A DNA stretch of 40,413 bases. Origin: a virus. A model generated the notes under the pieces. It was not told where the DNA came from. It searched no databases and saw nothing but the letters and a program-made list of their open reading frames with translations. This document shows, in pieces, positions 3,790 to 25,680 of this stretch. The position numbers were made by a program, and so were the translations under genes. The stretch is from positions 1 through 40,413 of the IMG/VR virus record IMGVR_UViG_3300036832_001078, one strand, 5' to 3'. Every line of letters starts with the position of its first letter. Positions within the stretch are counted from its first letter, which is position 1.

Positions 3790-5315
3790 TCGTTCTGCCG
3801 ACCGGATCCGGCAAATCGCTGGTGATGGCGGCGCTCTGTCAGGACGTCCTGCGCGACTATCCTTTGATGCGCATCGCGATCGCGACCCACGTCAAGGAAC
3901 TGATCGCGCAGGACCATGCCGAGCTCGTAGCGCTCTGGCCTGAGGCGCCTGTAGGGATCTATTCCGCGGGGCTCAGACGGCGCGACACGTCCAGCCAGAT
4001 CCTCGTGTGTGGGATCCAGTCCGTTCACAACAAGGTCGAGCAGATCGGCGCCTTTGATCTGTTGCTGATCGACGAAGCGCACCTGATCCCGCGCACGTCG
4101 TCCACGATGTACCAGAAATTCATCATCACCCTGATGCAGAAGACGCCCGACCTGCGCATCGTCGGGCTGACCGCCACGCCTTATAGGCTTGACTCAGGCC
4201 GGCTCGACCAGGGCGAAGACCGCCTGTTCGAAACCGTCGTCTACGAGGCCAAGGTGCGCACCCTCATCGATGAGCACTACCTGTGCCCGCTGATCACCAA
4301 GGCCACCCTCCAGAAAATGGACGTGCTCGGCGTCGGAATGCGCGGCGGCGACTTCATCCCCAACCAATTGGAGATCGCGGTCGATCAGGACTGGATCACG
4401 CGCGGTGCGGTCGACGAGATCATGCAGTATGCCGACGGCCGCCGCGCATGGCTGGTGTTCTGTGCCGGCGTCGATCACGCCACCCACGTCCGCGATGAGA
4501 TCCGAGCGCGCGGCGTTTCATGTGAAACCGTCATCGGCGACATGCCAAAGCGCGAGCGCGATGCGCTGATCGCGTCGTTTCGGTTAGGCCAGATCCGCTG
4601 CCTCGTTTCGGTCATGGTGTTGGGGACGGGGTTCAACGTGCCTGGGGTCGATTTATTATGCCTCTTGAGGCCGACCGCCTCGCCGGGTCTGTTCATGCAG
4701 CAGGTCGGCCGCGGGCTGCGCAAGGCTGAAGGCAAAGCGAATTGTCTGGTTTTGGACTTCGCTGGAAACACCCGCAGACATGGGCCGATCGATCTGATCG
4801 ACGGCATCCGCAAGCGCACGAAGAAGGACGAGGACACTAACGTCGTCCAGGCCAAGGAATGCCCGCAGTGCAAGGCCCTGGTCGCGCTCGCCGCGAAAAT
4901 CTGCCCGACGTGCAGTTACGTGTGGGAAGAAGAGGCGCCGGTGCCGTCCCACGGCGCCGTGGCCGATGCCGACAACGACATTCTGGCCGACTTTGAACCG
5001 CAGTGGGTGTCGGTGACCGGCATCGCCTACGCGCGCCACGAGAAGATCGGCAAGCCGCCGTCTTTGCGCGTCGATTATTTCTGCGGGCTCCTGCGTCACA
5101 GCCGCTGGGTCTGTTTTGAGCACGACGGCTATGCGCGCGACAAGGCACGCCAGTGGTGGATCAGGAACGCTTACACACCACCACCTGCGACCGTCGACGA
5201 AGCGCTGCGACGCCAGGGTGAACTCACCATGCCGCGCGAGATACGGGTGAAACGCCAAGGCAAATATTTCGAGGTCATCGACACCCGCCTGAAGGAGTTC
5301 CAATATGCCGAGTGA
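3696..5315 (+). CDS. SF2 DEAD/DEAH-box helicase with zinc ribbon
   Basis: 539 residues. Motifs in order: a Q-motif-like LRGYQRDALDA (8-18), Walker A LPTGSGKS (34-41), DEAH at about 126-130, motif III L-T-A-T-P near 158, and motif VI QQVGRGLRKAEG near 335. A zinc ribbon (C-P-Q-C, then C-P-T-C) lies at about 389-409, followed by a 120-residue C-terminal region of unknown fold. The helicase core resembles RecQ/SSL2-like phage helicases. ATG 3696 has GGAAG seven bases upstream; ATG 3708 is an alternative. It overlaps the preceding nuclease gene by about 90 bases, which links the two in translation. Probable role: unwinding in replication or recombination. Confidence 0.88.
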   Translation: MGGWMFDLRGYQRDALDAQYGYWGKGGGNSLIVLPTGSGKSLVMAALCQDVLRDYPLMRIAIATHVKELIAQDHAELVALWPEAPVGIYSAGLRRRDTSSQILVCGIQSVHNKVEQIGAFDLLLIDEAHLIPRTSSTMYQKFIITLMQKTPDLRIVGLTATPYRLDSGRLDQGEDRLFETVVYEAKVRTLIDEHYLCPLITKATLQKMDVLGVGMRGGDFIPNQLEIAVDQDWITRGAVDEIMQYADGRRAWLVFCAGVDHATHVRDEIRARGVSCETVIGDMPKRERDALIASFRLGQIRCLVSVMVLGTGFNVPGVDLLCLLRPTASPGLFMQQVGRGLRKAEGKANCLVLDFAGNTRRHGPIDLIDGIRKRTKKDEDTNVVQAKECPQCKALVALAAKICPTCSYVWEEEAPVPSHGAVADADNDILADFEPQWVSVTGIAYARHEKIGKPPSLRVDYFCGLLRHSRWVCFEHDGYARDKARQWWIRNAYTPPPATVDEALRRQGELTMPREIRVKRQGKYFEVIDTRLKEFQYAE

Positions 5316-8421: not shown

Positions 8422-8461
8422 GTGTGCGGAAATGCCGGACGGTATTTTCCGCACACTTTTT
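8422..8461 (+). terminator. Intrinsic terminator of the rightward early operon
   Basis: GTGTGCGGAAA (8422-8432) pairs perfectly with TTTCCGCACAC (8446-8456), followed by TTTTT (8457-8461). It begins one base after the stop of the preceding gene and closes the early operon. The stop codon of the leftward gene at 8460 overlaps its T-run. Confidence 0.9.
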
Positions 8462-8717
8462 ACCACTTGAACTTGTGTTTCACGAGGTGGGTGTTGATCC
8501 TGTAGAGGCCATTGGCGTCGATGTCGATCTTGCCGTCATGGACCGTGGCCCGGAAATAGCCGTGACCCGTGAGGTTAATGATCCTGCGGACGCGCTTGGA
8601 GAAGGCCGTCTCGGGCACCAGCAGCAGGATCCGAATATCCTGGCTCGATACAAGCCACGGACCGTCATGGGGACCGTCGGCAGGACGCTGAATCTTGACG
8701 ATGGTGCTGGCGTTCAT
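8460..8717 (-). CDS. Hypothetical small leftward protein
   Basis: 85 residues. The composition looks genuine in its C-terminal half (LTGHGYFRATVHDGKIDIDA, then NGLYRINTHLVKHKFKW), which suggests a small beta-rich domain. It is the last of the leftward small genes driven by the promoter at 9134-9106. The opposite strand is open over the same span but reads as a compositional shadow. No family is recognised and there is no clear ribosome binding site, so it may be translated by coupling or reinitiation. Confidence 0.6.
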   Translation of the reverse strand: MNASTIVKIQRPADGPHDGPWLVSSQDIRILLLVPETAFSKRVRRIINLTGHGYFRATVHDGKIDIDANGLYRINTHLVKHKFKW

Positions 8718-8726
8718 GGGGACGTC

Positions 8727-8939
8727 TCAACAGTAGTAGCGCCAGCGCGGGCACACCACGACGTAGTCATAGTGCGGCTGAGAGGCCGCCGCCCCCATGT
8801 TCGGCCGAGACCTGCGCGCTGGTTTCCGCTCGTGCAAGGGGCAACGCAGCCGGAAATCAGGGCGACAGAGGCAAGTCAAGTTAATTGAATGAACGGTCGT
8901 CGCGGTCTCGGTCGCGCTCGTCGTCGGGGTCGAGGCCAT
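8727..8939 (-). CDS. Possible small cysteine-containing leftward ORF
   Basis: 70 residues if the ATG at 8939 is used, overlapping the upstream gene by 59 bases. A TTG at 8879, one base after the upstream stop, would give 50 residues. The C-terminus (PHYDYVVVCPRWRYYC) looks protein-like; the N-terminal part is Thr/Arg-rich and weak. It fills an otherwise empty gap between two more convincing leftward genes. The start and even the coding status are uncertain. Confidence 0.3.
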   Translation of the reverse strand: MASTPTTSATETATTVHSINLTCLCRPDFRLRCPLHERKPARRSRPNMGAAASQPHYDYVVVCPRWRYYC

Positions 8940-9069
8940 GCACGGCGCAGTAGCGGTCCAGGCGGATCCATTGGTCGGGATCCCCGTTGACGCCCACCAC
9001 CGTGCACGAGCAGTCGCGGTCGAAGGGGTCGTAGAGCTCGGGGTCGACGGTGATGCAGCGGATGATCAT
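8881..9069 (-). CDS. Hypothetical acidic leftward protein
   Basis: 62 residues. AAGG seven bases before the ATG is a good ribosome binding site, and a promoter (TTGACC, 17 bases, TAGATT at 9134-9106) lies about 35 bases upstream. The product is acidic (DPELYDPFDRDCSCTVVG, then HGLDPDDERDRDRDD) with three cysteines. No family is recognised. It is the first gene of a short leftward unit opposite the coiled-coil/HTH operon and shares its control region, which suggests a common accessory function. Confidence 0.6.
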   Translation of the reverse strand: MIIRCITVDPELYDPFDRDCSCTVVGVNGDPDQWIRLDRYCAVHGLDPDDERDRDRDDRSFN

Positions 9070-9105: not shown

Positions 9106-9134
9106 AATCTAGGCCATTCTGTCACCCCGGTCAA
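9106..9134 (-). promoter_or_regulatory. Leftward promoter with AATGGCCTA element
   Basis: On the minus strand TTGACC (9134-9129), a 17-base spacer and TAGATT (9111-9106). The last bases of the spacer plus the start of the -10 read AATGGCCTA, identical to the same position of the opposing rightward promoter. The distance to the leftward ATG at 9069 is suitable. Confidence 0.65.
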
Positions 9135-9169: not shown

Positions 9170-9198
9170 TTGACAGGGCGGCCAAAATGGCCTATGAG
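9170..9198 (+). promoter_or_regulatory. Rightward promoter with operator-like inverted repeat
   Basis: TTGACA (9170-9175), 17 bases, TATGAG (9193-9198): a near-consensus sigma-70 promoter. The spacer contains GGCCAAAATGGCC (9180-9192), an inverted repeat abutting the -10. AATGGCCTA at 9186-9194 is the exact inverse of TAGGCCATT at 9110-9118 in the opposing promoter. A GTTCAGTATTGTTGA stretch at 9159-9173 is a weak match to the phage operator motif. It drives the operon starting at 9228. Confidence 0.75.
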
Positions 9199-9227
9199 GG
9201 AGGGGAGGTACAACCTAGGATAAAGAT

Positions 9228-9452
9228 ATGACCGACGCAGACTTTACGCTGATGTTCGAAACGCTAAAGGATATGCAAACTCGCATGAGCCGCATGGAGA
9301 AAGACATTGCGGAAATAAAAACGCACATGTCATCCATCGACGAACACATCACGCTCATTCATAGGGATATGTTCCGTTTCTCTTCGCGCGTAGAAAGCCT
9401 TGAAGAAAGAGTGACGCGCATCGAAGCCCGGCTCGACTTGCGTGATCAGTAA
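9228..9452 (+). CDS. Small coiled-coil protein
   Basis: 74 residues, almost entirely a predicted coiled coil with heptad spacing of hydrophobics (MQTRMSRMEKDIAEIK, then VESLEERVTRIEARLDL). AGGA lies seven bases before the ATG. It is the first gene of a four-gene operon with a near-consensus promoter, and its stop shares one base with the start of the next gene. Small coiled-coil phage proteins of this kind have no assigned function; it may pair with the coiled-coil/TM protein encoded next. It has no DNA-binding motif. Confidence 0.75.
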   Translation: MTDADFTLMFETLKDMQTRMSRMEKDIAEIKTHMSSIDEHITLIHRDMFRFSSRVESLEERVTRIEARLDLRDQ

Positions 9453-9775
9453 TGGACACGATCGCATACCGCGAGGAACTGAAGCGGCTGGGGATGGATA
9501 AAGACCTCGCCGACCTTATTGCACATGCGCCGGAACGGCTCGGTGGTGGGTACGTCACACGCGATTATCTGGATGCCAAGCTGGCAAAACTCGAAAGCAG
9601 GATCGACGGCGTCGAGCATAAAATCAGCGGCGTCGAAATAAAAATAGACGGCCTCAAAATCAGCATCGACGGTCTCAAGGACAGCCTCTTCCTCCGCCTC
9701 GCCAGACTCATGTTCCTGATGGGCGGTGCCTACACCGCGATTCTGTTCTGGGCGCTGAAGTACTACAAGCCATGA
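9452..9775 (+). CDS. Coiled-coil protein with C-terminal membrane segment
   Basis: 107 residues. Residues 1-35 form a small domain (YREELKRLGMDKDLADLI). Residues 40-82 are a coiled coil built of near-identical 7-residue units (KIDGLKI, SIDGLKD). Residues 83-103 are one transmembrane helix (FLMGGAYTAILFWAL) ending KYYKP. It resembles the coiled-coil/TM architecture of DUF1640-type proteins, without claim of homology. It overlaps its neighbours by one and four bases. A membrane-anchored partner of the preceding coiled-coil protein is plausible, for example in superinfection exclusion; this is inference. Confidence 0.75.
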   Translation: MDTIAYREELKRLGMDKDLADLIAHAPERLGGGYVTRDYLDAKLAKLESRIDGVEHKISGVEIKIDGLKISIDGLKDSLFLRLARLMFLMGGAYTAILFWALKYYKP

Positions 9776-10062
9776 CCAATTTCACCCCAACCCCCGCGGA
9801 AGCGTTGGGAGCTCGGGAAATGAACGCCATCGTGACCTGGAAAAACCGCACCATGACCGCCCGGCAACTCAAGGCCGCCATCAAAGGGCTCGGCATGACC
9901 CAGGCCGGCGCCGCTCGCTTCGTGGGCGTGTCCGAGCGTACGATGCGGCGCATGATCGCCGCTGAGGTTGATGTTCATGTGAGCATCGTCCTGCTGCTGC
10001 GCCTGATGATCTACACCAACCAGAAGCCGGTCGTGCCGGAATGGACGCGAGATCAGACATGA
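9772..10062 (+). CDS. Small HTH protein (Aca1-like layout)
   Basis: 96 residues, starting in an ATGA overlap with the preceding gene. Residues 32-65 form an HTH (LKAAIKGLGMTQAGAARFVG, then VSERTMRRMI) followed by a hydrophobic helix (VSIVLLLRLMI). The length and motif order resemble small autoregulators such as anti-CRISPR-associated Aca1. It is encoded third in an operon whose promoter carries a GGCC-AAAAT-GGCC inverted repeat next to the -10, so it is the natural candidate to bind that site and control both divergent promoters. The HTH is clear; the Aca analogy is inference. Confidence 0.75.
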   Translation: MTNFTPTPAEALGAREMNAIVTWKNRTMTARQLKAAIKGLGMTQAGAARFVGVSERTMRRMIAAEVDVHVSIVLLLRLMIYTNQKPVVPEWTRDQT

Positions 10063-10292
10063 CGCGCAAGAAAGCCGCCAAGAAAGCCACCCTCCAAAAG
10101 GACCTCCGGGCCTTTATCAAAGCCTCCGGCGAATTGCTCGACGCCCTCGACACGACGCACCCTCAAGTTCGTGAAGCGCTGGACGCGGCCGGGAGAACCC
10201 TTAAAGATCCGAAGATGTCGGTCGCGGAGGCCATCGCGCGCATCCGCATCGTTCATGCGGCCGCGAAGGCCGCTCTGGCAAAACAAGCTTGA
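10059..10292 (+). CDS. Hypothetical Lys/Ala-rich helical protein
   Basis: 77 residues from the ATG at 10059, which overlaps the preceding stop as ATGA; an in-frame ATG 18 bases earlier is less likely. The N-terminus is basic (TRKKAAKKATLQKD), the rest helical (LRAFIKASGELLDALDT, then AEAIARIRIVHAAAKAAL). No family is recognised. It is the last gene of the four-gene operon before the terminator at 10345-10371. Confidence 0.65.
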   Translation: MTRKKAAKKATLQKDLRAFIKASGELLDALDTTHPQVREALDAAGRTLKDPKMSVAEAIARIRIVHAAAKAALAKQA

Positions 10293-10344
10293 CAATCTCC
10301 TAAAACGGGATTACTGGCGAAATATAGCGGTCGCAAACCGCGCG

Positions 10345-10371
10345 AGGCCCCGTCCCTGGTGGGGCCTTTTT
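10345..10371 (+). terminator. Intrinsic terminator before the late operon
   Basis: AGGCCCC (10345-10351) pairs with GGGGCCT (10361-10367) around a 9-base loop, with a T-run at 10367-10371. It separates the coiled-coil/HTH operon from the packaging genes. Confidence 0.9.
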
Positions 10372-10448
10372 GCGTTTTAGGGACGCGCGCTTTTGCACGG
10401 GGGTCCAAAAGTTTCCAAGTGCCGAGAACACCTTTAGAAATACGCACC

Positions 10449-10679
10449 ATGGCCCGCGGTAAAACCGCCATGGGCATTCGCATCCTTACTGAAATAGCAA
10501 AATCCAGAAAATGTAAATCCGCCGCACGCGTCGCAGCCATACGCGAACTGTTCGACCGCGGCTGGGGCAAAGTGGCGCAGCCCCTCGTCGGCAATGACGA
10601 CGGCGACATCAGAATTACAATTAGAAATATTGTGGAGGCCACAGCGCCACGCCATGATGACGACACCGAGGCCTCATGA
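10449..10679 (+). CDS. Probable small terminase subunit
   Basis: 76 residues from the ATG at 10449; upstream codons in this frame cross the terminator and are unlikely to be translated. Residues 8-45 (GIRILTEIAKSRKCKSAARV, then AAIRELFDRGWGKVAQPL) show the A-A-R-x-A-A-x-R-E-L-x-D-R-x-x-G-K pattern of short phage proteins encoded before the large terminase. It overlaps the large terminase by four bases (ATGA). The presumed role is to recognise the packaging site. It is shorter than classical TerS proteins, so the subunit call rests mainly on position and motif. Confidence 0.6.
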   Translation: MARGKTAMGIRILTEIAKSRKCKSAARVAAIRELFDRGWGKVAQPLVGNDDGDIRITIRNIVEATAPRHDDDTEAS

Positions 10680-23578: not shown

Positions 23579-25201
23579 ATGGCCGCTTACCAAGCCTTTC
23601 GCCGCGCGCCAGTCCCGCCGCAGGTCGCGCAGCAGGTCCAGTCCGTCAATTTGCCGGCGCCGACGCTTGGGTTGAACGTGAGCGCCAATCTCACGCAGAT
23701 GGCGCCGGGGAGCGCATCGATTCAAGACAATTGGAAGCCTACGATGCAGGGCGTGGCGCTCCGCGGCGGCTGTGTGCGGTGGTGCGTGCTGCCCGAGAGC
23801 ACGCCGGTGATTTCTGCTTTCGAGTACGCCAGCGGCAATGTGCAGCATATGTTCGCCGGCAATGCGACCAAGCTCTACGACGTCACGGGCGCCGGCACAC
23901 CCACGCTGGTCGCATCCGGCCAGACCTCGGGCAACTACTGCGCTTCCCAGATGGCCAACGCCGCGGGCGACTACCTCATGGCGGTCAACGACGGCGGCGA
24001 TCCACCGCTGCGCTTCGATGGCGCGGCGTGGACCGTGCTCAACAGCGGCCAGATCACCGGGCCACCCGGATCCTCGGTCGTGGCCGGCGAGAACCTGACG
24101 TATGTGTGGAAGTACCGCAATCGATGGTTTTTCATCGAGGGCGGATCCATGAACGCGTGGTATCTGCCGATCGATTCCATCCAGGGCGCGCTCGCGATGA
24201 TCCCGCTCTCAGGGGCGGCATCAAAGGGCGGCAAACTTCTCTTCGGCGCGTCGTGGTCGATGGACGCCGGCAATGGCCTGGACGAGAAGTGCTGCTTTGT
24301 GACCGACCTCGGGGAAGTCCTGATTTTTAGCGGTACAGATCCGTCGAGCGTCGACAATTGGCAGCAAGAAGGCCGCTATACGATCTCGCCGCCCATGGGC
24401 ATGAATGCGCATATGCAGGTCGGCGGCGATCTCCTGATCGCGACGGTTGCCGGCATCATCCCTGTGTCCCAGGCCATCACCAAGGATGTGACCGTGCTCG
24501 ATCTGGCCGCGGTGACGCTGCCGATCCGCAGCATGTGGCGCGACGAGGTGCTGGCCAAACGCGATTGGGCCTGGACGATGAAGAAGTGGGACGAGTACGG
24601 CGGCATATTCGTCACGCTGCCGGGCGGCGTGGTCGGCAGTCAATACTGTCTGGCTGTGAACCCCGGCACGAACGCATGGGCGCGCTTTACCGGCTGGGAT
24701 GCGACCTGCTTTATCCGCCTGCGCGGCGATATGTTCTTCGGTACGCAGGGCGGCATCATCATGCAGGCCGATCAATCCGGCAACGACGATGGGCTGCCCT
24801 ACGTCGCGACCCTTGTCATGGCTTGGGGCGCATTCCCCGGCGGGCCGGCAGAAGTAACGTGGCATCAGGCGCGAGCAACGTTCCGCGCCAACTATGGCGA
24901 GCCGTTCCAGCCGCAACTTGCAACGACGGTCGACTACATCGTGACGCTGCCGCCGCCGCCGCCGGCCGGCGAGGATCCGGCCCTGTTCGATGTCTGGGAC
25001 GAGGGCAAGTGGGACGTCGCCAAGTGGGATCAGCCGGGGCCGAGCAAGCCGACCGTGCACAACACGCAGTGGGTCTCGATCGGCATGACCGGCTACAGCC
25101 ACGCGCCGATCGTGCAGGTGACGGTGTCGCAGCAGACCAAGCCGATCGTGGAGTTGATTGCCATCGGCGCAACCTATGAGCCGCGCGGGGTGACCGTGTG
25201 A
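23579..25201 (+). CDS. Tail or head-closure protein, beta-propeller-like
   Basis: 540 residues. It has repeated short beta segments with aromatic and Gly-rich turns (GNVQHMFAGNATKLYDVTGA, LTYVWKYRNRWFFIEGGSMN, DLLIATVAGIIPVSQAITKD), compatible with a propeller-like protein such as the P22 gp10 DNA-stabilisation protein. The W-D-E-G-K-W-D-V-A-K-W-D segment near residue 475 and a proline run (PPPPPAGEDP) separate a C-terminal beta domain. Position after the adaptor-fibre and before ejection proteins fits a tail-hub or head-closure role. The fold is inferred. Confidence 0.55.
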   Translation: MAAYQAFRRAPVPPQVAQQVQSVNLPAPTLGLNVSANLTQMAPGSASIQDNWKPTMQGVALRGGCVRWCVLPESTPVISAFEYASGNVQHMFAGNATKLYDVTGAGTPTLVASGQTSGNYCASQMANAAGDYLMAVNDGGDPPLRFDGAAWTVLNSGQITGPPGSSVVAGENLTYVWKYRNRWFFIEGGSMNAWYLPIDSIQGALAMIPLSGAASKGGKLLFGASWSMDAGNGLDEKCCFVTDLGEVLIFSGTDPSSVDNWQQEGRYTISPPMGMNAHMQVGGDLLIATVAGIIPVSQAITKDVTVLDLAAVTLPIRSMWRDEVLAKRDWAWTMKKWDEYGGIFVTLPGGVVGSQYCLAVNPGTNAWARFTGWDATCFIRLRGDMFFGTQGGIIMQADQSGNDDGLPYVATLVMAWGAFPGGPAEVTWHQARATFRANYGEPFQPQLATTVDYIVTLPPPPPAGEDPALFDVWDEGKWDVAKWDQPGPSKPTVHNTQWVSIGMTGYSHAPIVQVTVSQQTKPIVELIAIGATYEPRGVTV

Positions 25202-25680
25202 TGTTGTCCTATCTCTACAACAGCCACCACGTCGTCGCCGCCTGGGTCGCGCAGAGGATCCCGCATTGCCGGCGCGGCTGGGAAGCTTGCAGGGCGATCG
25301 GCATCGCCGACGATGACGATCTCATTGCCGGCCTCGTGTATCACAACTGGGAACCCGAGGCGGGGATTATGGAAATTTCGAGCGCTGCTGTGCCGGGGAG
25401 CGGCTGGTACACGCGCGAGACCATGGCGCGGCACTATCAGTATCCGTTTTTGCAGTGTCAGTGCCAGATGGTGGTTGTGCGCGTGAAGGCATCGGACGAG
25501 CGCCTGCTGCGCATGTTCGCGGTGCAGGGCTACGCCTTCGTGAAAATCGCGCGCCTCTTTGGGCGCAACGAGGACGGAGTGGTCGGAACACTTACTTATG
25601 AGGATTGGGCCAACAATAAGTTCAACAAACGGTTTGGGCATCACCATGAAGTATTCTCAGAACGTCTCGCCGCAGCGTGA
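25201..25680 (+). CDS. GNAT-like acyltransferase-type phage protein
   Basis: 159 residues from the ATG at 25201, sharing one base with the previous stop (TGATG). The sequence has a GNAT-like flow: an N-terminal helix, a beta-hairpin with L-I-A-G-L-V-Y-H-N-W, M-E-I-S-S-A-A-V, and a C-terminal R-L-F-G-R-N-E-D-G-V. No catalytic assignment can be made. Short GNAT-like proteins occur in podovirus late clusters. Moderate confidence in the fold, low in the activity. Confidence 0.55.
   Translation: MLSYLYNSHHVVAAWVAQRIPHCRRGWEACRAIGIADDDDLIAGLVYHNWEPEAGIMEISSAAVPGSGWYTRETMARHYQYPFLQCQCQMVVVRVKASDERLLRMFAVQGYAFVKIARLFGRNEDGVVGTLTYEDWANNKFNKRFGHHHEVFSERLAAA

Follow-up and report, generated by a model that had tools for sequence, protein, structure and literature searches.

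In acr-aca systems, each of the tested Aca families represses a promoter whose core contains an inverted repeat (PMC9410906), and partner exchange between repressors has been reported (PMC9765179, PMC9410906). The locus described here resembles these systems (Aca1, Aca2, Aca10) in several ways: a small helix-turn-helix (HTH) gene lies downstream of small variable genes, an inverted repeat lies inside the core promoter, the HTH protein is closest in fold and sequence to the Aca1/Aca2/Aca10 group, and partners are exchanged in this phage group as well. However, the HTH gene has no known Acr neighbour, is common in its phage group, where it lies next to the terminase, and seems to act on a divergent pair of promoters, each arm with its own cargo. 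The locus is also comparable to phage morons, as it has its own promoter and terminator and its cargo is gained and lost between related phages, but it differs from them in having a conserved repressor, a divergent arm and a fixed place next to the terminase. Considering these comparisons together with the evidence below, we lean toward an Aca-type, self-repressed cassette of accessory genes.

The window, meaning the whole 40,413-bp virus record that was analyzed, contains integrase, portal, virion and tail-fibre genes and is a temperate phage of 40.4 kb. Its terminase has at least 80 relatives among IMG/VR contigs, and the hosts of the nearest named phages are Rhizobium and Bradyrhizobium. 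No RNA families or tRNAs were found in the window. An acyl-CoA N-acyltransferase-like gene (25198-25680, + strand; phrog_4470, E 6e-33) sits amid the late structural genes. The cassette itself is a transcription unit at the boundary of early and late genes (9170-10375), comprising a promoter, genes for two small coiled-coil proteins (cc74 and ccTM107), the HTH gene, a gene for a Lys/Ala-rich protein, and a terminator. The initial annotation had correctly placed these genes between the early and late regions but missed the intrinsic terminator (10344..10375, + strand; an 11-pair stem followed by a T-rich tail) that closes the unit upstream of the terminase genes. The next gene probably encodes the small terminase subunit (TerS; 10449..10679, + strand), as judged by its position and by a related protein that adjoins TerL in most loci. 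Terminators also lie between the HTH gene and TerS in several relatives, and these and the terminator at 10344 suggest that the unit is transcribed apart from the late genes. Within it, the four rightward genes lie close together, stops overlapping starts, and dN/dS values against relatives indicate purifying selection on all four.

The first two genes had been described as encoding small coiled-coil proteins, one of them with a membrane helix, and both are real. The first encodes cc74, a soluble coiled-coil protein of 74 amino acids (9228..9452, + strand), with relatives in loci L003, L004, L007, L008 and L090 and dN/dS of 0.10-0.16. The second, ccTM107 (107 amino acids; 9452..9775, + strand; dN/dS 0.09-0.26), is predicted from an alignment and a low-confidence model (pLDDT 60) to have a small helical head, a long coiled-coil stalk and a C-terminal membrane helix. 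This architecture is like that of the CCDC90/DUF1640 head-neck-stalk-anchor proteins, and residues 2-87 align weakly to CCDC90B (6h9m, E 0.29), but the match to the Pfam CCDC90-like profile is far below the family cut-off (11.5 bits against 33.5). Neither cc74 nor ccTM107 has a clear relative in the phage collection; ccTM107 also has none among plasmids and none in the genome-collection scan.

Between ccTM107 and the HTH gene, the window carries the scar of a lost gene (9772..9819, + strand). As the 48 bases before the HTH gene correspond to the two ends of a gene for a hydrophobic membrane protein of 72-74 amino acids, which is intact in L008 and L004, this gene was evidently deleted here; it is also whole in L002 and L003, L007 has a 70-amino-acid frame, and L002 and L003 have a further gene of 157-162 amino acids ahead of the HTH. 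Downstream of the HTH gene, the Lys/Ala-rich protein (77 amino acids; 10059..10292, + strand) has relatives in L002, L003 and L007 and dN/dS of about 0.65; the gene had been recognized before, with a start that we corrected to 10059, so that it overlaps the HTH stop. A different Lys-rich gene takes its place in L008, and L004 lacks it. In three more distant phages (L009, L014, L046), two small proteins are encoded between the HTH and TerS, one a membrane protein and the other a coiled coil; they resemble the window's proteins in kind but come from different and unrelated families.

Searches of the partners against Pfam, PHROGs, NCBIfam and PADLOC, libraries that are a poor test for Acrs, gave no match to any protein known to act as an Acr, in anti-restriction or in exclusion, and ORF157 of L003, a protein of the accessory family c9 and the leftward protein r85 had no meaningful match among solved structures. 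As at first reading, none of the effectors was recognized. The suggestion of an anti-defence or exclusion layout holds for its small variable genes, its Aca-group HTH and its core-promoter repeat, but finds no counterpart in any match to an Acr, anti-restriction or exclusion protein. None of the partners hit a model of a defence or counter-defence family in these libraries, so that anti-CRISPR action specifically draws no support from them, although it may still occur.

The leftward arm is intact only in part. Its first gene encodes a small acidic protein, r62 (8881..9069, - strand), with an ORF coding score of 15.8 and no relative found, and further along is r85 (8460..8717, - strand), which is 85-87% identical in L003 and L007. 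The facing small acidic leftward genes of the initial annotation are represented by the acidic r62 and the conserved r85; r70 (8727..8939, - strand) is only the remnant of a lipoprotein gene, in which just the last 18-21 residues are conserved. That gene is whole in L003 (4338-4625, - strand) and in L007 (- strand), with the lipobox LAGC. Small prophage lipoproteins act as exclusion factors in some cases.

The HTH gene (9820..10062, + strand) encodes a probable autorepressor of 80 amino acids, a prediction based on the family alignment, the structure model and its structural group. It had been noted as Aca1-like in size, and the gene is indeed real and Aca-sized (dN/dS 0.27-0.49 in pairs with the window), but its start required correction: alignment to the nearest relatives begins only at residue 17 of the 96-amino-acid ORF, which places the start at 9820. 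The structure model (pLDDT 87) most resembles Aca2 (Z 9.9), MqsA (9.3), Aca10 (9.0), HigA2 (8.9) and Aca1 (8.6), with the structural-genomics proteins 2ox6 and 2auw also ranking among the best matches, while the remaining HTH structures, further Aca2 entries and Aca7 among them, reach Z 6.9 or less. Sequence-profile matches are to MqsA (E 0.0013) and Aca1 (E 0.0025, obtained with Aca1 chains and hence a proxy for the Aca HMMs, on which AcaFinder assigns the named families Aca1-12 at E < 1e-10). By its model, the protein thus belongs to the Aca1/Aca2/Aca10-MqsA-HigA2 structural group, a shared fold that in itself shows no function.

Homologs of the HTH were found in 45 other loci, directly upstream of TerS/TerL, and in many of them the rightward unit starts with the HTH. 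In the 20 larger relatives that were searched whole, 13 had one clear HTH copy, 4 had weak matches only and 3 had none; a genome-collection scan returned zero relatives. Because the HTH occurs beside the terminase in much of this phage group, it alone does not mark acr or anti-defence genes. The initial annotation had named HTH homologs that never lie beside small variable genes as evidence that would count against it; across the 45 loci, the partner genes are small, mostly unannotated and changing.

A strong promoter with an inverted repeat had been reported ahead of the cassette, and both elements are present, but a second, divergent promoter with its own repeat had been missed. The rightward promoter (TTGACA-N17-TATGAG; 9170..9198, + strand) contains the perfect dyad GGCCAAAATGGCC (9180..9192; score 15.2), conserved in L003, L007 and L008, and the leftward promoter (TTGACC-N17-TAGATT; 9106..9134, - strand) contains GGCCATTCTGTCA (9112..9124; score 14.9). 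In both, a 13-bp dyad of the class GGMCA-N3-TGKCC falls within the spacer between -35 and -10, and we refer to the pattern of a -35 element, 3-5 bases, an operator and a -10 element as an operator-bearing promoter. Both scores come from a matrix that was built from the promoter regions of HTH-family loci and trained without the window's clade. With this clade-held-out matrix, the only two operator-bearing promoters in the whole window are those at 9170 (+ strand) and 9134 (- strand); their operators are the second and third best sites in 40 kb, the best (15377) lying outside any such promoter.

At least one operator-bearing promoter is present in 17/36 HTH-bearing loci (shuffle expectation 0.10), and both arms carry one in 9/36 (shuffle expectation 0.00, with both arms never obtained in shuffles), compared to 1/27 HTH-less loci with any. 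The strict pattern is absent from several HTH-bearing loci (L029, L046, L053, L069, L074). Site density in a leave-one-out analysis was 22-fold higher inside promoter regions than elsewhere (37 sites in 16.3 kb vs 35 in 346 kb). HTH presence also goes with strong sites (23/28 vs 5/24, Fisher p 1.6e-5), a value uncorrected for relatedness, and since the HTH-less loci are also from more distant phages, this association is not free of shared ancestry. Because visual inspection of these same data first brought up the operator motif, it is tested fairly by the held-out clade and by the loci that lack the HTH. Covariation between the recognition helix and operator bases is weak (p 0.02-0.06), and as this comparison was devised after seeing the data, we do not use it as proof. 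Overall, we consider the regulatory model, in which the HTH acts through the predicted operators on two promoters, to be likely; another conserved regulator could use these sites.

Gene content around the HTH changes between relatives, and the sequences show signs of exchange gene by gene. Synonymous distances between the window and L007 are 0.23 for cc74, 0.88 for ccTM107, 0.75 for the HTH, 0.17 for the Lys/Ala-rich gene and 0.67 for TerS, and those between the window and L003 are 1.40, 0.36, 0.68, 0.30 and 0.87 in the same order; it is these jumps between adjacent genes that point to such exchange. Two accessory families, c9 and c15, have members whose arm differs between phages, leftward in some and rightward in others. 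Loci with c15 or c9 on either arm of the divergent unit are L013, L029, L036, L047, L061, L082 and L084; c15 proteins have 190-260 amino acids and a CxxC-like motif and are related to phrog_11549. Between phage pairs, the mean alignable fraction is 0.99 for TerL itself, 0.23 in the kb just before it and 0.08 at 1-2 kb before it; downstream of TerL it is 0.33 and 0.65. The low values near the HTH are supportive only, since early regions vary in general.

One relative of cc74 lies in an unrelated phage. The 44.9-kb phage contig that includes L090 has no detectable match to the window's TerL, and its cc74 (4001-4210) has 90% DNA identity to that of the window. The 80 bp upstream are unrelated (21% identity), and there GGACACTTTGTCC lies directly 5' of TATAAT, which makes it a different promoter with an operator of the same class. 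The contig ends inside cc74, and its opposite end (L097, 591-821) encodes an HTH that falls just short of the cut-off for the Pfam Aca2_YdiL model (23.3 of 23.8 bits). Circular permutation of the contig, if it applies, would give cc74 a different Aca-like repressor as its partner there.

Alternatively, the HTH may be a developmental switch, either Cro-like or an early-to-late regulator, with neighbors that are ordinary phage genes and not anti-defence or exclusion cargo. Its prevalence in the phage group, always just upstream of TerS/TerL, its place at the head of the rightward unit in so many relatives and its predicted control of two divergent promoters, as in Cro/CI-type switches, would all fit. 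We nevertheless regard this as unlikely, as both the window and several relatives have terminators between the HTH unit and TerS, a separate repressor-like gene, distinct from the cassette HTH, is present at 185-607, and the neighbors are exchanged singly and switch arms, with cc74 even turning up in an unrelated phage.

Two further readings were each judged far less probable. If ccTM107 were XhlA-like and the hydrophobic protein deleted here were its holin, the unit would be a lysis or holin-type module; ccTM107 does match XhlA and a PHROG named hemolysin weakly, and no endolysin, holin or spanin was recognized among the late and leftward genes scanned (12814-40413, except for some small ORFs at 15-17 kb). 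Unlike in XhlA/XhlB, however, ccTM107 scores below the XhlA cut-off (12.3 bits against 34.7) and the adjacent hydrophobic gene is deleted; in addition, no endolysin lies beside ccTM107 and the unit precedes the late genes, and this reading appears very improbable. The least probable is a toxin-antitoxin module in which the HTH would be an MqsA- or HigA-like antitoxin repressing its own operon. Toxin-antitoxin operons, too, can have a gene ahead of an HTH that represses its own expression (PMC9410906), and the HTH here does resemble the DNA-binding domains of MqsA and HigA2 in both sequence and structure. Unlike MqsRA and HigBA, though, it has no conserved toxin partner beside it: the HTH is retained where the gene ahead of it varies or is missing, and no partner matched a toxin family in profile searches.

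Returning to the Aca-type cassette, the HTH protein probably represses both divergent promoters and with them a variable set of small membrane and coiled-coil genes. On cell entry, both divergent promoters would fire, with rightward transcription producing cc74, ccTM107, the HTH and the Lys/Ala-rich protein and leftward transcription producing the small leftward genes. As the HTH protein built up, it would, presumably as a dimer, bind the 13-bp dyads in the spacers and shut both arms, and the terminator at 10344 would keep expression of the cassette out of the late genes. We infer that the cargo, swapped gene by gene between phages, most likely targets the host or competing phages instead of serving virion building, and it may act in anti-defence or in superinfection exclusion at the membrane. 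This anti-defence or exclusion role is proposed tentatively, with less confidence than the regulation. More speculative still, and rather doubtful at present, is the idea that the HTH and the 13-bp operator together mark an uncatalogued two-armed anti-defence locus of phages related to those of Bradyrhizobium and Rhizobium, whose small proteins, such as cc74 and ccTM107, would inhibit defences or exclude phages; if this were true, a search with nothing but the operator motif could turn up new counter-defence genes.

If the cassette reading is right, its arrangement, with one repressor, two divergent operator-bearing promoters and cargo to either side, would be an extension of the simple acr-aca layout, and the HTH and its operator would together serve as bait for the uncharacterized small genes of this group of soil phages, for which we found no described marker.
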